Shown: positions 41,848-50,438 of the stretch, in pieces | Numbering within the stretch: the stretch's first letter is position 1 | Layout of the letters: every line of letters starts with the position of its first letter | Assembly: GCF_014692875.1 (NCBI RefSeq) | Contig: NZ_CP061171.1 | Coordinates: 3,844,001 to 3,908,000, forward strand | Direction: 5' to 3' | Source of the DNA: Pedobacter riviphilus | GTDB taxonomy: Bacteria; Bacteroidota; Bacteroidia; Sphingobacteriales; Sphingobacteriaceae | DNA length: 64,000 nucleotides | The notes under the pieces: generated by a model | What the model was told of the DNA's origin: nothing | Database searches by the model: none | What the model saw: the letters and a program-made list of their open reading frames with translations, nothing else | Made by a program: the position numbers and the translations under genes

Positions 41848-42001
41848 TTCGGGTAATTAGTTCACTAACAACAGGTTTAATTATTTAAATCGGTAACTAT
41901 ACACTAGGCGCTAATCTCTATACTCTAGGCTCAAAAAGATTTTTCGGGGCAGGTCTTCATATTATAGAATTAAAAATGCACCTTAATAATACAGAAGATA
42001 A

Positions 42002-42157
42002 GACTCGAGATGGCGCAAAAACAAACAACAACAACAACAACCAACATTGGAAGGCCTTAATAAAATTGCAGAATCCCTGAGTATGGATATCAGAGAGTTA
42101 TTAAATCCGAGCGATTGTAGTAATAGCAGGATTAAGGCCATTAAGAAAAGTAAATGA
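42002..42157 (+). pseudogene. Relic of an XRE-type regulator C-terminus
   Basis: An open stretch with no proper start reads PTLEGLNKIAESLSMDIREL, then LNPS, the standard end of an XRE helix-turn-helix domain (fifth helix onward), then a short basic tail to TGA. It is preceded in frame by a CAA tract (five glutamine codons) that has replaced the DNA-binding helices. It points towards the restriction cassette and may be the remains of its controller gene. The rest of the 41750-42267 gap has only the M16 terminator and no recognisable gene. Confidence 0.55.
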
Positions 42158-42267
42158 TACTAACATGGCGAAAAATGTCCTATGATCTCGTAAACATAGT
42201 TTCTCACTTGAAAAGCTTCACCTTACCGAAACAGAATCAGGACCGGTAATTTGTTCTGATCATACTT

Positions 42268-43644
42268 TTATTTTTTCTTCACAGCTTCTGCGACAGATTC
42301 GGCAGAGCCAAAGCCAAGGCGTTCAAGGAAATTGAATTTTTTGTCTGTTAGTCTTGGTAAACCTTTCCTGTTATAAATCCCTGAAAACCTATCCATGATA
42401 TCAGTTATTATAGGCTCATTTACTCTTAGAATCAATTTCATTTTAGCAAACTGGATCTGCTGCAGTGTTTTGACAGATCTTAAATTTACAACAACATGCT
42501 CATCCGCCAAGCCTGCATAATATAACATATAGAATCCCGGATTTTTGGCATAAAAATCCTTTATATCCCTCATTGATTTCCATTCTTTGCTGCCGTTTAA
42601 GCCTGCTTTATTGATGAGGTACGGTGCCTCTTTGTCTTTATAATCTTTAGGGACGTAATTTGACGGATATGTTTTCTCATTAAACTCAATACATTCCAAT
42701 ACCGTAAATCCCTCACCTTTTACCTGGGCGATATCACACTCCGGAGTAATTACAAGTAAATATTTAATTTTTTCTTCATTTGGAATTTCATAAATATTTC
42801 CGGTCCAAATCGGATGGCTTTCCAATATGCCTGATGTATTATACAAAAAGTTGAAGCCCTTGATAATGCTTTTATTGAGGTCATGATTGACCTCTTCTCC
42901 TTCAACGGGCGGTGGAGGAGGTGTATAATTTGAAGAAATAACGTGCTGCCTTAATAGCCCTAGTAAAAGACTGTTTAAAGTCAGGTTGATATGCTCTTTC
43001 GAATCAAGATCCTCTTTCAAAATATTGTAAAATTTATCCCATGTTTTAGTTCTGACATCCATAAACGGGCTTAGAGCAATATCTCTTGCTTTATTCAGGC
43101 TACATTCAAACTGAGTGATCAATTCATGCGAAAATTTATCTGATAATATTTTAAGCAGATCCTCTTGAATGGTTTCAATTTCCTTGTTAAATGAAACTGC
43201 ATAATTGTTGAGAAAATTCAGTTCTTTATGATTTTTTACCCTATCCTCTTCAAGCTCGGCTATCCACTCTTTTTTAATATCATCCCATTTTTCAGCATAT
43301 GATGAGTTGATTGCAAGAAAAAAATACCCAAAACATTTAATGGCATTTAGTATAATCGCTTTAACCATCGCAATATCCCCTTCCTCTACTTCACCTGATT
43401 CATCAAGATCAAGATCCAAAACTAGTAGTCGCACGTTTTGGTAGTGCTTCATCTTTTGAAGCAATGATCCAAGATCAGATGTATCAGTTATGGCTGAGAA
43501 AAAATATCCGTGGTTGTCAAACAATGATTTAAGCCTTAGGAAGTTGGAACGCTGAACTTTCTGCGCCACATCCTGCGGCTCATCTTTATAACAAAGGTTG
43601 AACTGATCGTCAATTACTAAAATATTACCTGGAAAGAGAGACAT
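42268..43644 (-). CDS. Receiver-like protein of the restriction cassette
   Basis: A 458-residue protein whose first about 130 residues resemble a response-regulator receiver: NILVIDDQ with the acidic pair D12-D13, and the strand VRLLVLDLDLDESGE with aspartates 77/79 at the phospho-acceptor position, followed by a YFFLAINSS strand where the conserved Thr/Ser would be. The remaining about 320 residues are unrecognised; they contain LVITPECDIAQVKGEGF and end with a DRFSGIYNRKGLPRLTDKKF segment. There is no DNA-binding domain. Its start lies 12 bp after the stop of the histidine-kinase-like gene, so the two are an operonic pair and probably a signalling pair. It may be an effector or a regulator of the restriction system. 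Confidence 0.7.
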   Translation of the reverse strand: MSLFPGNILVIDDQFNLCYKDEPQDVAQKVQRSNFLRLKSLFDNHGYFFSAITDTSDLGSLLQKMKHYQNVRLLVLDLDLDESGEVEEGDIAMVKAIILNAIKCFGYFFLAINSSYAEKWDDIKKEWIAELEEDRVKNHKELNFLNNYAVSFNKEIETIQEDLLKILSDKFSHELITQFECSLNKARDIALSPFMDVRTKTWDKFYNILKEDLDSKEHINLTLNSLLLGLLRQHVISSNYTPPPPPVEGEEVNHDLNKSIIKGFNFLYNTSGILESHPIWTGNIYEIPNEEKIKYLLVITPECDIAQVKGEGFTVLECIEFNEKTYPSNYVPKDYKDKEAPYLINKAGLNGSKEWKSMRDIKDFYAKNPGFYMLYYAGLADEHVVVNLRSVKTLQQIQFAKMKLILRVNEPIITDIMDRFSGIYNRKGLPRLTDKKFNFLERLGFGSAESVAEAVKKK

Positions 43645-43656
43645 AAATTTATTGTT

Positions 43657-46251
43657 TTAAAATATGATTTCTAATACAGCACCACTATCGTTATAACCGT
43701 GTAGGCTTGCATCGATTCTTGTTAGAATTTCCTTGACAAGATATAACCCAAGGCCGAGGCCATCTGTTTTTCTGCTATAATATGGCTCAGTAAGCAGTTC
43801 AAAAGGGTCTTTAAATCCATCACCATTATCTTTGATAATCAAAAAAGGCCGGTTTTCATTGTTGATTCCTGATGTAATTATTATTTGAGGCTGAAAATCT
43901 ACATTGTTGTTGCGCATTGCAATTTTTTTGGCTCTCAGCCAATACACGGCATTATCCACGATATTCAGCACTGCAGTATTAAGAAGCCCAGGGAGTGCTT
44001 CAACATTTATTTCTTTTTCCCCGTGGTAAATCAGGTTGATATTATATTTTTCCAGATCACCTTCTTTTAAGATTTTTACGTTGCTTACAACGGTAGTGAG
44101 GTTTACCTTTTGCCTTTTTTGACGTGACATAATTGAGGATACAGCTTTCACAATATCTTCAGTATCGCGGAGCTGCCTTGCGAGCTCTCTCAGGTATTTA
44201 TCTTCGATTACAGCATTACGTTCAATGTCCTCTATAACGTGTTTTATTGACGAAAGTCTGATTTTCATTTCATGAATCGGAAGGCTATAAGAAATTCCTA
44301 TTGCTGCAGCCATCATGTATCTTTCAAGAACATCATTGATTTTTTCATGATATTTCTTCTCAATGACATCGACGGTCTGTTTATATAACCCGTTGTGATT
44401 GTTGTGTTCTATTTCGGATCTTAACTTATCGATGTTCTGTGTAACAACGTCCATTGAATTGTTATTTGTGGAAACGCTGTCAATTTTTATTTTATCCGTT
44501 TTTCTTTCCTTGGCAAATATGGCCAATGATGAACTTACAAGATGATAAAACTGCTCATAGTTTTCATTTCTTATCAAGCCTTCCCTGTTAGACTGATCAG
44601 CAAGCATCTCATTCCATATTGAAGAGATATGCACAATCCCGAAAATCTGATTTCTAGATACTGTTCTCTGTTTGGGAGCGTTTAGCCTAGTCAGATCCAG
44701 TTCAAGCCAGTCGTTATCCGGTTCGCCGTATGGCCATACCCGGAAATTGTCTCGATAGATCCGGACACCGGTATTCGGCTTAATTATATTTTTGTAATAG
44801 TCTGCTAGTCCGGCAACTTTTAAAGAGGCAGAATCAAGATCCCAAGCATAAAAACTTACCTCAAAGTTTCCCGGAGTGTTTCTGTCATTCAAAGGGTGTT
44901 CTTCAGACCATTCAAGATCATATTCATTAAGGTTTTCTTCCTTAGCTGTTACGGTTCTTTGAATGTCCTTATAGCCCGCCCGCCTGAAATCATAGTCGTA
45001 TGTAATATTTCCGTTGGTGTCTATGATGCCTTTGAACTTATAAAATGCTGTTTCCAGTAGTTCATTAAAAGATTTAAGGTCGGAAATTTCGTTGTTTAAT
45101 TTTATATCATTCGAAGTAATATTTATAGAAATACCTGGGTCATTGTAATTTCCGGCCTCATGATGGGAAGTATTTTTTGCGGCCACAGGGCTTTCTAACC
45201 CTTTGATCTTAAGTACAGCATCCATGACCGCCTTAGAGTTTTTCCAAGGATGAATGTTCGAGATCTTAATTATTGTCCCTGAGGATCTAAGGAACTCTTT
45301 TGGAGCTACTTTTGATACTGTAATAGGAATTTCCTCCAAATATTTATCTTCCGTGAATACGTTCCAGTCTATTTTTACTTTAGTTTCATAATCCAGAGGC
45401 TGCAGATCGCAGTCAAGCTTTGCTCTACTGGAAAGCTCAATATTATTGCCAAGGCGGTGTGCAGCAAAACGGCCGATGCCTTTTTCACCCAAAAGCCTCC
45501 TTTTGGAACAGATGCTGAATTTTTTGTTGATGGAATCTTTTTTATCGGGGGTTGCCGGTTCGAGCCATACATCCACAATTTTTTCATGGGTCATTCCCAA
45601 TCCATCATCCCTTACAATTATCTCTCCTGATTCAGAAAAAATGTCATTTAGTTCAATATCAATATTTCGGGCATCGGCATCGTAAGAATTTTTTATGAGC
45701 TCTACAAGCGCAATAACGTCATTCGAAATCAGCTCCTGACCAATTACCTTTATAATCCTTGCACGGGGTCTGAAACTGTAATCGCCTGTAGAGATTATAT
45801 TATTCATTATCAGGCTATTTGTATCTTCTTCAGAAAGTTCTAACTCTGCTAAAAATCGATTTTTTTCGGATTCGTCAGACAACAAAAATCCAAGGTAGGA
45901 GTCTTCAGAAATCTTGGTTAATATTATGAGCTGTCCCTCTTTAAAAGACCTGCCCATCCTTGTAATCCTATATTCGTTTCTTGTACCTTGACCATAATAG
46001 ATGAAGCGGCATTCGGAAGTTGCACCGTCATACCATTGAATAGAAGCAAACTTTTCTTTATTTTCGCCTTTTTTGCCGGGCTCATCAAACATTAATTTGA
46101 TAGAATTTTTTGGAATATATAACCCTGCCTGATGGGCACCGGTAGCACCGGCATCATTAGGACTTACAAATTTGCAAAAACTATATTGATGGGCTTTTAC
46201 CGCAGCAATCGCACTTGATAACTCATCTGTCATGTCTTGATTAGATTCCAT
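43657..46251 (-). CDS. EcoRII-N-like domain fused to two GHKL ATPase domains
   Basis: An 864-residue protein. Residues about 20-135 match the EcoRII N-terminal DNA-recognition domain (FVSPNDAGATGAHQAGLYIP, ECRFIYYGQGTRNEYRITR). Residues about 160-340 form a GHKL ATPase of the MutL/MORC/Hsp90 type: N-box ALVELIKNSYDADA (E184, N188), G1 DDGLGM (215-220) and G2 GEKGIGRFA (255-263). After a middle region, residues 646-864 look like a sensor histidine kinase: SLPIHEMKIRL with H660, N-box NIVDNAVYW, G1 DNGDGF (808-813) and G2 GLGLGLYLVKEI (831-842). So one chain combines site-specific DNA binding, a MORC-like ATPase and a kinase-like ATPase. No membrane segment is visible; it is probably cytoplasmic. 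It sits between the restriction enzyme gene (29 bp) and the receiver-like gene (12 bp). Confidence 0.78.
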   Translation of the reverse strand: MESNQDMTDELSSAIAAVKAHQYSFCKFVSPNDAGATGAHQAGLYIPKNSIKLMFDEPGKKGENKEKFASIQWYDGATSECRFIYYGQGTRNEYRITRMGRSFKEGQLIILTKISEDSYLGFLLSDESEKNRFLAELELSEEDTNSLIMNNIISTGDYSFRPRARIIKVIGQELISNDVIALVELIKNSYDADARNIDIELNDIFSESGEIIVRDDGLGMTHEKIVDVWLEPATPDKKDSINKKFSICSKRRLLGEKGIGRFAAHRLGNNIELSSRAKLDCDLQPLDYETKVKIDWNVFTEDKYLEEIPITVSKVAPKEFLRSSGTIIKISNIHPWKNSKAVMDAVLKIKGLESPVAAKNTSHHEAGNYNDPGISINITSNDIKLNNEISDLKSFNELLETAFYKFKGIIDTNGNITYDYDFRRAGYKDIQRTVTAKEENLNEYDLEWSEEHPLNDRNTPGNFEVSFYAWDLDSASLKVAGLADYYKNIIKPNTGVRIYRDNFRVWPYGEPDNDWLELDLTRLNAPKQRTVSRNQIFGIVHISSIWNEMLADQSNREGLIRNENYEQFYHLVSSSLAIFAKERKTDKIKIDSVSTNNNSMDVVTQNIDKLRSEIEHNNHNGLYKQTVDVIEKKYHEKINDVLERYMMAAAIGISYSLPIHEMKIRLSSIKHVIEDIERNAVIEDKYLRELARQLRDTEDIVKAVSSIMSRQKRQKVNLTTVVSNVKILKEGDLEKYNINLIYHGEKEINVEALPGLLNTAVLNIVDNAVYWLRAKKIAMRNNNVDFQPQIIITSGINNENRPFLIIKDNGDGFKDPFELLTEPYYSRKTDGLGLGLYLVKEILTRIDASLHGYNDSGAVLEIIF

Positions 46252-46280
46252 TTAAATTAAATATATAAAACAAAGCCGAT

Positions 46281-47477
46281 TTATAACACATCCAGCTGTT
46301 TATTTGCAACCAGATTTATAAAATCCTTCAATGAAATTAAATTAACTTTTTGTGCTTCAGTATAAGTAACCAATAGAGGAGAAGGTATAACTAATTGTAA
46401 ATTATTTGCCCTCATATCTTCTGTTTGATTCCAGCTAATTGCAGGTTCCAGCGTAATTAAATGCTTTTGAGGAATTCTTGCTGCTTCTGATAATACCTGT
46501 CGCCACCTGTCTTTAGCTGTTGTTTTGACGCCAAGCATAGAAAGCAGGTTAAAATCAAATTCATTATCATGATATTGTTTAGTGCCTGGAAAAACAAAAT
46601 CAGGCTTATTATTTCTTTCCGTGATTCCGCCATGGGTATAAGCCAAATTATTAAGTTCGAAAATCAATGCCAGATTATGCTCGAAAGAAAACCCCGCCCT
46701 TGCCTTTCTCCGGTTTTGTATACTCAATGAAAAACTTATAAAATCGTCTACATCTTCCCCAAAACCTTTCTTTAGTTTTTCTTTTACCAAAGCTTTTTCG
46801 AGTGTTTTAAAAAGCAGTTCTTCGCGTATCATCCATTTTAATAACGTTTGATCAGGCTCTTCAATTGGTGAAACATCCTTTACTGTTGATCTCGAAAATT
46901 CAGAAAATATCTTAGTAGAAGGAAACGACCTACCGAATTTTTCGAGAATGAGCTCAAGGTAGTCAGGTAAAGTTTCTTCAAGCTCGAAACCCAGGGTTGA
47001 TAAAATGTATCTCCCTGCAAAGCCGATATCCGTGTTGCTCGCTGATAAATCCTTAACAACGAGACGTGTGTCTAAATCAGCCAAGCCGAACAACCAGAGA
47101 AGTTGTTTTTCAGAGGTTGAGCCTTGAGGAGCCACAATAGTAGCCAGGTTATGATCATCGATTTTCGCAACAATAAGCAAATCGCCTGCGTTCGCAGTAG
47201 CAAAAATTTCATCTTCGGAATAATATAAGCGATATTCTGATCGTGTTGGGTGACTTTCCCGTGCATCATACCAGGTCATTTGGCCACTTACACTTTTTAC
47301 TTTTTCTTCATCATCAAACAGGGAGATAAAGGTGGTGGCGAATGTAGTTTTATCAGGCCCGAAGATACGCTTAAAATCGCCGATTCCGTTAAGTTCGTGT
47401 TGGTGAGAGATTATTGATGACACCTCTACGATAGACAGTCTTTTCGCACCTATTGCCTTGAAGTATTTTGAGAGCAT
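46281..47477 (-). CDS. EcoRII-type type II restriction endonuclease
   Basis: A 398-residue protein. Its C-terminal half (about residues 215-398) closely matches the EcoRII catalytic domain: NRRKARAGFSFEHNL (255-269), ITERNNKPDFVFPGTKQYHD (285-304), MLGVKTTAKDRWRQVLSEA (314-332) with the PD-(D/E)XK-type lysine, and LVIPSPL. The N-terminal half (SHQHELNGIGDFKRIFG, MTWYDARESHPTRSEYRLYY) is a diverged effector or pseudobarrel domain. EcoRII-type enzymes cut before CCWGG and often need two sites. The methyltransferase next door is Dcm-like, so the same CCWGG-type site is expected, though the exact site must be inferred. The start lies 8 bp after the methyltransferase stop. Confidence 0.88.
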   Translation of the reverse strand: MLSKYFKAIGAKRLSIVEVSSIISHQHELNGIGDFKRIFGPDKTTFATTFISLFDDEEKVKSVSGQMTWYDARESHPTRSEYRLYYSEDEIFATANAGDLLIVAKIDDHNLATIVAPQGSTSEKQLLWLFGLADLDTRLVVKDLSASNTDIGFAGRYILSTLGFELEETLPDYLELILEKFGRSFPSTKIFSEFSRSTVKDVSPIEEPDQTLLKWMIREELLFKTLEKALVKEKLKKGFGEDVDDFISFSLSIQNRRKARAGFSFEHNLALIFELNNLAYTHGGITERNNKPDFVFPGTKQYHDNEFDFNLLSMLGVKTTAKDRWRQVLSEAARIPQKHLITLEPAISWNQTEDMRANNLQLVIPSPLLVTYTEAQKVNLISLKDFINLVANKQLDVL

Positions 47478-47485
47478 TCTTGTTA

Positions 47486-48733
47486 TTATTCTGATTTTAA
47501 CCTCTGTAATATTTGGTTTCCTACAGCCTGAATAAGTGGCATTACTACGGAATTCCCGAACTGCCTGTAAGCCTGATTGTCAGACACCGGAATTACGAGA
47601 CTTTTCGTTTCGTCATATGTATTAATCGGATAGATGGGATAACCTTGTAAAGCTCCTGCCTCGTGTGGCGTTAATCTACGTGGATTTTTTCCTTCCTGAG
47701 CAATCAATATTTCTGCCCCATCTTTATAATACCTTGCGCTTATCGTACGGCTAATGCCATCTGGATTAGCTAAACCAAATCCAAATCCATTACCCTTCTC
47801 TTTATGCTTTTTAGCATATTCCTGCAAATAATTCCAGAGTTTGTCACTTAAGGTAAACTTTGATTCAACATTTTCCTGGAGAATGGTTTTGAGCTGTTGT
47901 TTTTCCTCCGGCAATTCTACCTGACTAAAATCGAATTTAACATTATCGCCATAAACACGTTTATCGAATCCAACCATTAAAGTTCTTTCACGGTGTTGGG
48001 GAACAAAATGTTTCCCATCGATTACTTTATGATCAAAGGAATAACCGAGTTCTTCCAGTGTTTCTTTGATAACCTTGAATGTTTGCTTCTTATCGTGTGA
48101 CACTAGGTTCTTTACATTTTCTAGGAAGAATGCTTTTGGGCGGTGCTTTTCAATAATGTCTGCAATATGAAAAAACAGATTGCCTTGTTTTTCGTCTGCA
48201 AAGCCATGCAACCGGCCTAAACTAATTTTTTTCGAGACTCCTGCAATTGAAAAAGGCTGGCAAGGGAAGCCGCCACAAATAACATCAAATTCCTGAGGAA
48301 TATATTGTTTGGTAGAATCTTTTGTGATATCGCCAAAAGGATACTCGCCATAGTTTGCAAAATAGGTTTGCTTAGAGTATTTGTCCCACTCGGAAGTAAA
48401 TACACAACGACCGCCCAGATTTTGAAGGGCCATCCTAAATCCACCTATACCTGCAAACAAATCTATAAATGTGAATAACTCTTTTCCTTCTTTTGGGCCG
48501 GGAAAGGGAACACTGGTATTTCCGAACAGCTTTTGCTGAATTGCCCGATAAAGATTATCCAGATTTGGTTCTTCCACCAAATGCGTAAATTGCTCAACAA
48601 CATCCAGCGCGTTGCCATATATGGGTTCATTTGTTGAATGATAGTGTGTTAACAAAGCCAAATCATTATCCTGCGGAAGGATTACTTTAGTCGATTTTTT
48701 ACTTTTTGATTTATAAACTACTTTATCTTCCAT
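47486..48733 (-). CDS. dcm: Dcm-like DNA (cytosine-5-) methyltransferase
   Basis: A C5 methyltransferase with motif I FIDLFAGIGGFRMALQNLGG, motif IV GGFPCQPFSIAG with the catalytic cysteine, motif VI FFLENVKNL, motif VIII QHRERTLMVGF, and motifs IX-X ending IPVSDNQAYRQFGNSVVMP. The target-recognition stretch SRTISARYYKDGAEILI with RRLTPHEAGALQGYP closely resembles E. coli Dcm and M.EcoRII, so CCWGG-type methylation is likely. The start is set at ATG 48733 because AAGGAGA lies 7 bp before it (+ strand 48740-48746); such a Shine-Dalgarno sequence is unusual for Bacteroidota and may hint at transfer. It protects host DNA from the neighbouring restriction enzyme. Confidence 0.92.
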   Translation of the reverse strand: MEDKVVYKSKSKKSTKVILPQDNDLALLTHYHSTNEPIYGNALDVVEQFTHLVEEPNLDNLYRAIQQKLFGNTSVPFPGPKEGKELFTFIDLFAGIGGFRMALQNLGGRCVFTSEWDKYSKQTYFANYGEYPFGDITKDSTKQYIPQEFDVICGGFPCQPFSIAGVSKKISLGRLHGFADEKQGNLFFHIADIIEKHRPKAFFLENVKNLVSHDKKQTFKVIKETLEELGYSFDHKVIDGKHFVPQHRERTLMVGFDKRVYGDNVKFDFSQVELPEEKQQLKTILQENVESKFTLSDKLWNYLQEYAKKHKEKGNGFGFGLANPDGISRTISARYYKDGAEILIAQEGKNPRRLTPHEAGALQGYPIYPINTYDETKSLVIPVSDNQAYRQFGNSVVMPLIQAVGNQILQRLKSE

Positions 48734-48861
48734 ACTATCTCCTTCAATTAACACAAACTAGATATTTTTTTTGGTTTGGCCGGGCTAAAATTTTCAACAC
48801 CTAGCTGCAAATATAGCGTATTACTAACTAAATTAGTAGAATTTATGTCCTGAGTGCCATT

Positions 48862-49299
48862 TTAGATAATGTTGACAATAACAGGTTGAGTCAGGTAGGC
48901 CAGAAGATTAGTAAGTGTTGTAGATTTTTGTTTAGGCTTCAATTCACATTCCCATATCTCTATAACCTGCCAACCTGCATTTTTTAATGATTCGATATTA
49001 GAGCTATCTTTAGTTTTATTACCATTAATTTTGTTTAGCCACCATTCAGTTTTAGTTTTTGGGATTACATAATATCTGCATTGATCATGACCATGCCAGA
49101 AGCAGCCCTGTATAAATATAACAGTTTTGTATTTTGGCAACGCAATATCGGGCTTGCCTGGTAAATCTTTAACATGGAGGCGATATCTGAAACCATTGGC
49201 ATGCAGAAACCGGCGCACGAGCATTTCGGGTTTGGTATTTTTGCCCTTGATGCGGCTCATGTTATATGAGCGGGTTTCTTTGTTGTGTACGTCTGCCAT
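48862..49299 (-). CDS. vsr: Very short patch repair endonuclease Vsr
   Basis: Vsr nicks beside T:G mismatches arising from deamination of 5-methylcytosine, so it accompanies Dcm-type methyltransferases. The start at ATG 49299 gives MADVHNKETRSYNMSRIKGK, the normal beginning. Motifs are RIKGKNTKPEMLVRRFLHANGF (read as two adjoining stretches), LPGKPDIALPKYKTVIFIQG with the metal-binding aspartate, CFWHGHDQCRYY with zinc-binding residues, and NGWQVIEIWECEL-like KNAGWQVIEIWECELK. It is the first gene of the minus-strand cassette, 128 bp before the methyltransferase start. Confidence 0.92.
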   Translation of the reverse strand: MADVHNKETRSYNMSRIKGKNTKPEMLVRRFLHANGFRYRLHVKDLPGKPDIALPKYKTVIFIQGCFWHGHDQCRYYVIPKTKTEWWLNKINGNKTKDSSNIESLKNAGWQVIEIWECELKPKQKSTTLTNLLAYLTQPVIVNII

Positions 49300-49388
49300 C
49301 GTAATATAACAATGTACAATCATTAAAGTTGGTCGATATTTGATCAATATATTGCAGTTAGATGATCCCGCATCTTAACGGTCAACAG

Positions 49389-50438
49389 CTAAGCATATTT
49401 CAATGTGCTCAAGATCTCATTTATCGAAAATTTAGCCCCGCAAACAAACTCATCGGCTGCACCATAATAAATCGTTAATTCATCTCCGTTAACGATGTGG
49501 CCATTTGTAAATACTACTTCACCAAAGAAACCATGCAGTTCGTAATCCTCTTTTGGTACCATAATCGGATTTTCGGTTCTAGCCAGCACTTTCGATGGAT
49601 CATTTAAATCCATTAGAAATGCACCTAAACAATACTGATGTTTTTCATTTGCTCCGTGATATATTTCGAGCCATCCTTCTGCGGTTTTTATAGGTGCTGC
49701 ACCGGCGCCCACACGGGCACTATCCCAGAGGTTAGGTCTGGTTTTAATAATACACCTGTGTTTGCCCCAATGAATCCCATCCGGAGATTCGGCCAGCCAG
49801 ATATAATTACCACCCAAAGCTACACTGCTGGGGCGGTGCAAAGCGTAAAATTTACCATTAACACATTCTTCAAATATGGCGCAGTCTTTATTGTGGGGAG
49901 GGATAATCATACCATAACGCTGAAAGTTTTTCCAATCTTCTGTAGTCCGCATCCCCACACCAACGCCATGCTCTGAAACAGCGGTATAGGTTAAATAATA
50001 CTTATCTCCTATTAAAGCTACTCGGCAGTCTTCAATTCCAAACATTTCATCTTTGCCCTCTCCCTGTAGCAAAGGAAAGCCTTCGGGTTCATCAAAATGA
50101 ATACCATCAGCGCTACAAACCAATCTTAAATGAGATAGTGTGGTTAGGTAATCAGTTCCTTTGTAAGTGATCACTCTCGGGTCGCTGGCATTGAGACCCG
50201 GATCGTTTTCTTCGATGGCTATAATTTCTATCCCAGCTTCGTTTAATACCGGAAACGAAATGATGCCTTCCTTTTGCTTTGGTCTTTCGGCTACACGGAT
50301 CAATAGCCAAATTTTCCCTTCAAACTTAAAAACGCCGGGGTTTAGCAGACAAACAATCTCCAGTCCTTCCCTACTGGGTACGAGATCTTTTGGAGATAAT
50401 ATCGGATTTTGACGAAACCGCTGGGCAATATCGGCCAT
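49389..50438 (-). CDS. GH130 family glycoside phosphorylase/hydrolase
   Basis: A 349-residue five-bladed beta-propeller enzyme of the GH130 family, which acts on beta-mannosides, mostly as mannosyl phosphorylases. Motifs include LNPGVFKFEGKIWLLIRVAE (about residues 32-51), GIEDCRVALIGDKYYLTYTA (about 134-153) with a catalytic aspartate and YYLTYTA strand, IWLAESPDGIHWG, RVGAGAAPIKTAEGWLEIYH and the final ELTIYYGAADEFVCGA. No signal peptide is seen, so it is probably cytoplasmic. Substrates might be mannooligosaccharides or mannose-GlcNAc units. It lies beside the restriction cassette and near the second susC gene, and would suit use of N-glycan cores alongside the GH92 enzymes. Confidence 0.9.
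   Translation of the reverse strand: MADIAQRFRQNPILSPKDLVPSREGLEIVCLLNPGVFKFEGKIWLLIRVAERPKQKEGIISFPVLNEAGIEIIAIEENDPGLNASDPRVITYKGTDYLTTLSHLRLVCSADGIHFDEPEGFPLLQGEGKDEMFGIEDCRVALIGDKYYLTYTAVSEHGVGVGMRTTEDWKNFQRYGMIIPPHNKDCAIFEECVNGKFYALHRPSSVALGGNYIWLAESPDGIHWGKHRCIIKTRPNLWDSARVGAGAAPIKTAEGWLEIYHGANEKHQYCLGAFLMDLNDPSKVLARTENPIMVPKEDYELHGFFGEVVFTNGHIVNGDELTIYYGAADEFVCGAKFSINEILSTLKYA

Follow-up and report, generated by a model that had tools for sequence, protein, structure and literature searches.

What would a kinase and a receiver do when built into a restriction-modification (R-M) cassette? The question is raised by five genes of Pedobacter riviphilus, which lie in a stretch of 64,000 nucleotides (contig NZ_CP061171.1 of assembly GCF_014692875.1, positions 3,844,001 to 3,908,000), hereafter called the window. 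An initial annotation had described them as co-oriented genes with junctions of 8-128 bp, and this layout is borne out: all five open reading frames are uninterrupted and on the minus strand, where that annotation had placed them, and the order of transcription is vsr, methylase, nuclease, kinase-like protein and receiver-like protein, with gaps of 107 bp (128 bp counted from the ATG at 48733), 8, 29 and 12 bp. The features are as follows.

48862..49347, minus strand: vsr, very short patch repair endonuclease (Pfam Vsr 9.3e-34; TIGR00632 above cut-off); likely start ATG 49299, longer option TTG 49347, end 48862
47486..48754, minus strand: Dcm-type C5-cytosine methyltransferase (Pfam DNA_methylase 1.5e-80); start 48733 (ATG) or 48754, end 47486
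46281..47477, minus strand: EcoRII-type nuclease with an intact EcoRII-C (Pfam 1.3e-62) and an alternative, SNQHEFNG-type N-terminal domain
43657..46251, minus strand: sensor-kinase-like protein of 864 amino acids (aa), EcoRII-N/GHKL/DHp/HATPase (Pfam, PDB match, motif conservation)
42268..43644, minus strand: receiver-like protein of 458 aa, REC plus a C-terminal domain (alignment of 67; PDB profile matches to response regulators)
41850..49400, no strand: inserted cassette, approximate limits, flanked by the M16 peptidase and GH130 genes (same-genus comparison)

The best overall explanation, held tentatively and at slightly less than even confidence, is an R-M cassette with a built-in alarm, in which the kinase would sense unmethylated CCWGG and signal through the receiver to an effector. 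Its support is drawn from sequences, namely the domains, the intact catalytic residues in both partners, the adjacency of the pair, its linkage to methylases, and the way in which the EcoRII-N domain of the kinase tracks the type of methylase; site binding, methylation sensitivity, phosphotransfer, effector activity and a role in defence are predicted from these features. The general kind of pair is already published, and what appears to be new here is the fusion of EcoRII-N to the kinase.

The kinase-receiver pair

The kinase-like protein combines EcoRII-N (residues 22-104), a MORC/MutL-like GHKL ATPase (180-298), a DHp segment with His660-Glu661 and a HATPase domain (757-851). Its Pfam matches are EcoRII-N (5.5e-21), HATPase_c_3 (3e-19) and HATPase_c (1.4e-12), with none to HisKA, and it shows no membrane segments as judged by hydropathy alone. 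Residues 22-104 also match the solved EcoRII N-domain 3hqf (9e-10), and the EcoRII-N domains of the kinases share 47% identity with those of nine nucleases found by EcoRII-N match (146 aligned columns, hhalign E 1e-53). EcoRII-N is a candidate sensor, which may bind the site as its homologue does. The initial annotation had held that the pair lacks both a sensor and a DNA-binding output; the former part has to be given up in view of this candidate, and the latter stands, no known DNA-binding output domain being found by Pfam in the receiver.

Relatives of the pair were collected by a genome scan, in which 540 of at least 592 stretches encode kinase relatives and the best 80 loci were kept, some of them cut by contig ends. 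Both sets of ATP-site motifs and the phospho-histidine H660 are intact in all 81 kinases (the window's and those of the 80 loci): E184, N188, D215, G217 and G219 are kept throughout in the GHKL part, as are H660, N763, N767, D808, G810, G812, G831, G833 and G835 in the histidine-kinase part. Residues 255-260 are conserved partly by construction, because the loci were fetched with patterns including GEKG[IV]GRF. Within EcoRII itself, H36, Y41, R94, E96 and R98 are residues which we take to be DNA contacts, and their equivalents in the kinase, H40, Y45, R91, E93 and R95, are invariant in 16 of 16 database kinases. Over nine EcoRII-N domains from the window and the loci, the R, E and R are found in all nine, the H in eight (N in L016) and the Y in eight (H in L069); outside this set, two of the five residues differ in L008, judged by eye.

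The slot of EcoRII-N is filled variously in other kinases. In close sister kinases it holds an Ig/cadherin-like domain (by Pfam in 3 members, best 9e-5) or no domain; L003, L027, L067 and some of the proteins P0015-P0050 have a short N-terminal domain there, Ig/cadherin-like in some, which is unusual for a kinase with no membrane segments. Two Rhizobium plasmids (L142:5719-8319 and L143:5668-8268) encode a kinase with a different N-terminal domain of about 160 aa in loci with dcm, vsr and a type II nuclease, the methylase of L142 being Dcm-type and its nuclease EcoRII-like with an alternative N-domain; we considered this kinase domain as a further EcoRII-N and dropped the idea, hhalign giving no support. 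Kinase relatives also occur in records labelled as archaeal, of Altiarchaeales, Pacearchaeota and Cenarchaeum (L004, L012 and L057).

The receiver-like protein has a REC domain with D12, D13, D77, S114 and K154. Among 67 receivers (the window's and 66 kinase neighbours), D12 and D77 are present in all, position 13 is D, N or E in all, K154 is kept in 65, and S or T stands at 114 in 59. Pfam gives nothing meaningful for the window protein (the best match, E 0.1, is to an unrelated domain), nor a recognised output domain, and a single member of the 67 matches Response_reg (E 0.036). When the profile of the 67 sequences was compared with PDB, 15 of the 16 sequences at E up to 1 were response-regulator or receiver chains, with CheY-3 the best (E 0.0042) and two matches under 0.01. 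The C-terminal domain carries the motifs CD..Q.K and R-x-G (C303, D304, Q307, R426, G428), in which C303 and D304 are kept in 66 of 67, R426 in 62 and G428 in 63; no relative of it was found in Pfam, in PDB or as a separate protein. The claim that a kinase-receiver pair is built into the cassette holds, the domains and the phosphorelay residues being kept, and from these residues the last two genes look like an active pair, between which phosphate would be transferred.

A sister variant is found in eight loci (L005, L006, L007, L010, L016, L035, L066, L067), where a receiver of about 245 aa is followed by an MBL-fold gene with the metallo-hydrolase motif HPHxDH[YF]xG in 8 of 8; the one such protein scanned resembles LmuA (1e-14), RTasMBL and Avs1a.

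As the reading of the initial annotation expects, the pair is conserved side by side and lies mostly near restriction genes. A co-oriented gene starts from -28 to +86 bp of the kinase end in 75 of the 80 loci and is receiver-like in 74, of which 66 encode 390-600 aa and 8 encode 239-265 aa, the remaining one being a different gene of 295 aa; the eight short proteins show the receiver motif LFLDLxY or a close form. In addition, the longest contig of 24 of 45 receiver relatives is exactly equal in size to that of one of 120 listed kinase relatives, which suggests that the two share contigs. A C5 methylase is present in 61 of the 80 loci and Vsr in 41, either in 68 and neither in 12, as found by phmmer with the window proteins as queries (E<=1e-3), a search which favours Dcm-like methylases. 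The methylase lies directly upstream of the kinase, co-oriented and within 300 bp, in 35 of 80, and methylase, kinase and receiver form one co-oriented cluster in 34, of which 13 contain, vsr apart, no other gene of at least 150 aa (a contig end is reached by 2 of them); L008 of Flavobacterium anhuiense, which has EcoRII-N, is among these 13 minimal clusters. Since an EcoRII-C nuclease occurs in only 4 of the 80 loci, the EcoRII setting represents a single instance of something broader.

EcoRII-N, the Dcm-type methylase and the nuclease

EcoRII-N is carried by the kinase of the window and of nine of the 80 loci (10 of 81), with none in the other 71 at E<=10, and by 30 of the 120 kinase homologues listed, a count that includes the window's. 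Between two groups of 8 EcoRII-N kinases (64 pairs) the mean identity is 59% in EcoRII-N and 30% in the cores, and the kinase tree requires six changes of EcoRII-N state; judged from these sequences, EcoRII-N is a module exchanged between kinase lineages. Of the 9 EcoRII-N loci, 8 have the Dcm-type methylase motif, versus 6 of 52 other methylase-bearing loci (Fisher p 8e-6), or 6 of 71 when all loci with no kinase EcoRII-N are counted. Independent pairs on the kinase tree, a quick LG+G4 tree with long-branch warnings, agree in about 5.6 of 6 cases (p 0.031 at the median, 0.031-0.219 overall); when the loci are limited to those bearing a methylase, the figure is about 4.5 of 5 (median p 0.0625, which is as low as 5 pairs allow). 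The exception to the link is L016, in which N replaces H40. This correlation lends indirect support to what the initial annotation had supposed, namely a signalling layer that may report methylation state.

A second type of operon points the same way, because its methylase is Dcm-type in 5 of the 5 loci showing one. It is located at L099:5092-9953 (minus strand) of a chromosome and in the viral L137-L141, and carries a separate EcoRII-N gene of 141-145 aa (L099, L137, L138, L139, L141) as well as a gene of about 600-660 aa; in L140 the stretch matching EcoRII-N is not called as one gene. A GHKL gene stands in the operon in L099 and L137-L140 (HATPase_c_3 by Pfam in L139, the others being 39-47% identical to that of L139), and L141 has neither a GHKL gene nor a methylase in the stretch examined. 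We considered that the EcoRII-N and GHKL genes of L099 might be a broken kinase and rejected this, as the viral L139 has the same three-gene order (47%, 49% and 40% identity); by its gene order and identities, the L099/L139 arrangement is a separate operon type with EcoRII-N as a protein of its own.

Two further sources of EcoRII-N kinases were looked into. A set of 2075 plasmid records was rejected as a kinase count, since 38 of 40 in an even sample match 9-10% of the query, the EcoRII-N stretch only; 35 of these 38 are annotated as restriction nucleases, 2 are unannotated and 1 is named EcoRII N-terminal effector-binding domain protein. The family of G654 gave a match in 1 of 13 genomes, and that was a nuclease.

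The initial annotation had called the first three genes a standard EcoRII/Dcm/Vsr set, which is right for Vsr, the Dcm-type methylase and EcoRII-C and not for the N-terminal half of the nuclease. Aligned to E. coli Dcm, the methylase shows 45% identity in 391 columns and the same stretch GNGFG...SARYYKDGAE; the assignment of methylases to CCWGG uses a motif verified on E. coli Dcm alone, which may take in CCNGG enzymes. The catalytic half of the nuclease aligns to EcoRII 1na6 (E 1e-40), at residues 163-389 only, and keeps the active-site stretch KPDF...VKTT...DRWRQ. From the Dcm-type motif and the EcoRII-C match, CCWGG methylation and cleavage by the cassette are predicted. The N-terminal half has no Pfam EcoRII-N match and so is not the canonical effector domain, being remotely like the EcoRII-N of nucleases (hhalign E 3e-5, probability 73%). 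This SNQHEFNG-type N-domain is found in 8 of 12 nucleases from 395 genomes of the class, including the window's and those of L125-L131, and on this count nucleases having it appear to be a separate, commoner subtype in this class.

The alternative N-domain is present in 4 of the 4 nucleases that adjoin intact EcoRII-N kinases (window, L005-L007), and L069 has a broken canonical nuclease beside its EcoRII-N kinase. We rejected the idea that the effector domain moved from nuclease to kinase: the alternative N-domain is common anyway, only 2 of the 7 other nucleases with it have a GHKL relative nearby, and L069 still keeps its broken canonical nuclease beside an EcoRII-N kinase.

Known relatives, mechanism and alternatives

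The initial annotation took this kind of pair to be new, which is not the case. In 2021 Bellieny-Rabelo (PMC8011034) published a kinase of the form HATPase_c_3/HEF_HK/HATPase_c whose partner is a Response_reg_2 protein, in the neighbourhood of C5 methylases, Vsr and nucleases, EcoRII-C among them; R-M control was proposed there and, in the sections covered here, the signal was left open. The likeness to HEF_HK/Response_reg_2 (PF19191/PF19192) lies in a HATPase_c_3, H-box and HATPase_c kinase with no membrane segments adjoining a receiver-like protein, and in the linkage to C5 methylases, Vsr and restriction nucleases including EcoRII-C. However, membership in these families was rejected, as the window proteins have no PF19191/PF19192 match at E<=1; neither family is among those listed for 33 kinases and 67 receivers (25 of 29, 25 of 40 and 25 of 26 shown), and each matches 5 of 148 genomes (3 over cut-off), not including the window's. 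The kinship is remote, with hhalign E 1e-27 over DHp and HATPase for the kinase and E 2.8e-5 (probability 74%, REC only) for the receiver, and by these profile comparisons the window pair is best seen as a remote sister family. EcoRII is named once in PMC8011034, as an EcoRII-C neighbour, and there is no EcoRII-N fusion in it; no report of a kinase-borne EcoRII-N was found in the literature searched, most subscription papers and all preprints being outside it.

Iyer, Abhiman and Aravind (2008, PMC2292703) described GHKL proteins in the company of methylases, Vsr and EcoRII-like nucleases, together with a DNA-binding protein of VP1/RAV type. The window resembles these MORC/paraMORC operons in its GHKL ATPase, cytosine methylase and Vsr, some of them having EcoRII-like nucleases as well, and in that the N-terminal HATPase_c_3-type GHKL module, with motifs intact in 81 of 81, stands in an R-M operon; their VP1/RAV protein is probably the separate EcoRII-N gene of L099 and L137-L141. 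It differs from them in having a receiver, a word that occurs 0 times in PMC2292703, and in its fused EcoRII-N and kinase-type second HATPase, neither of which is described in the sections covered here. With the EcoRII Type IIE system, as far as PMC4081073 was covered, the cassette shares a Dcm-type methylase, an EcoRII-C nuclease and an EcoRII-N effector-binding domain, but here EcoRII-N is on the kinase and a divergent N-domain on the nuclease. The GHKL module (166-337) matches the BbrUII/HgiDII-type model NF050001 (1.3e-18) and PADLOC REase_II (8e-11), yet its 67 of 550 bits are far under the NCBIfam cut-off, and the window kinase has EcoRII-N and histidine-kinase parts instead. Regarding MZA and Lamassu/Avs-type systems (PADLOC), the kinase matches MzaB weakly (6e-4) and the receiver no model. 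The pair is like a canonical two-component system in its phospho-His and N/G boxes (81 of 81) and in the receiver residues given above, and unlike it in having no Pfam HisKA and no known output domain.

As we picture the alarm, the Dcm-type methylase would mark its own CCWGG sites and Vsr would repair the deamination mismatches arising from methylation. The kinase EcoRII-N, homologous to the allosteric effector-binding domain of EcoRII, would bind CCWGG, presumably unmethylated, on incoming DNA; the signal would pass via the MORC/MutL-like GHKL ATPase to the DHp/HATPase part, which would autophosphorylate on His660 and hand the phosphate on to the receiver at Asp77. Once phosphorylated, the receiver would activate an effector, its own C-terminal CD/R-x-G domain here and the separate MBL-fold protein in the sister variant, and the EcoRII nuclease would cut in parallel, being dispensable to the design. 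With more reserve, as something possible rather than probable, we propose that recognition has been uncoupled from cutting: the EcoRII effector-binding domain would have been joined to a cytoplasmic histidine kinase on more than one occasion, and unmethylated CCWGG on invading DNA would thereby start a phosphorelay arming a receiver-controlled effector, with methylase, kinase and receiver as the minimal unit and the nuclease optional. If true, this would be a two-component system that senses the modification state of DNA and ties restriction to phosphorelay signalling; a self/non-self alarm would be wired to a phosphate relay and not straight to a DNA-cutting enzyme, and the role of GHKL ATPases in restriction operons would have a testable answer. 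The fusion points to CCWGG as the likely ligand and 5-methylcytosine as the likely switch, with His660 as donor and Asp77 as acceptor.

The same anatomy also fits a pair that regulates the adjacent restriction enzyme, the kinase reading host CCWGG methylation and the receiver repressing or releasing the nuclease or its expression, so that the host is protected while the methylase is established or lost. Control of R-M is what the 2021 authors proposed as far as their text was covered (PMC8011034), the cassette is a horizontal insertion, where control of establishment matters, and all four nucleases next to intact EcoRII-N kinases are of the alternative N-domain type; however, the 34 clusters of methylase, kinase and receiver include 13 with no large gene besides these and, at most, vsr, 5 of 9 EcoRII-N loci yielded no EcoRII-C nuclease, and the receiver shows no known DNA-binding output domain, which together make this rather unlikely, though to be taken seriously. 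There might be no phosphorelay at all, the protein being an ATP-driven DNA clamp of MORC/MutL type whose kinase-like part is a second conformational ATPase and whose receiver is a dimerisation partner. The HATPase_c_3 module is typical of MORC/paraMORC, HisKA is missing in the window protein and the receivers stay outside Response_reg but for one of 67, and still we regard the clamp as improbable, since H660 in 81 of 81, D12 and D77 in 67 of 67 and K154 in 65 of 67 are phosphorelay residues that are hard to explain otherwise.

It is very improbable that the pair is a chance neighbour, that is, a signalling or defence module of its own that happens to share a defence island with the EcoRII system. 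Defence genes do cluster, and in 2 of 7 alternative-N EcoRII loci (L130, L131) a GHKL relative lies close by on the other strand, but here the last four genes are a co-oriented operon with junctions of 8-29 bp, EcoRII-N sits on the kinase itself, and the directly upstream, co-oriented methylase recurs in 35 of 80 loci. Methylases can have regulatory functions, and a two-component architecture would also suit a house-keeping role outside defence, in which the pair is an epigenetic regulator that controls gene expression by reading Dcm methylation; to this we give next to no credence, as the cassette is missing at the site in same-genus stretches, EcoRII-N kinases are rare, the receiver has no DNA-binding output that we found, and the MBL protein of the sister variant resembles known defence effectors.

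Insertion site

The host genome is a single contig of 5.83 Mb. We searched 20 relatives of the same genus and took the stretch around the GH130 gene from five (L164-L168), none of which has a match to a cassette protein (tblastn E<=1e-15). The spacing between the M16 peptidase and GH130 is about 300 bp in L164, 230 bp in L165, 70 bp in L167 and 1990 bp in L168, and in L166 the peptidase was not found within a 19 kb stretch. In L164 and L165 the peptidase is 97-98% and the GH130 86-90% identical to that of the window, and the DNA common to them breaks off near 41850 and 49400. Because the flank genes occur in same-genus stretches that have no cassette, and the shared DNA ends at both edges, the cassette (about 7.5 kb) is taken as an insertion local to this site and probably recent. 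At the insertion edge, a remnant frame (42032-42154, plus strand) ending GLNKIAESLSMDIRELLNPSD... is like the tail of an Xre-type HTH controller.
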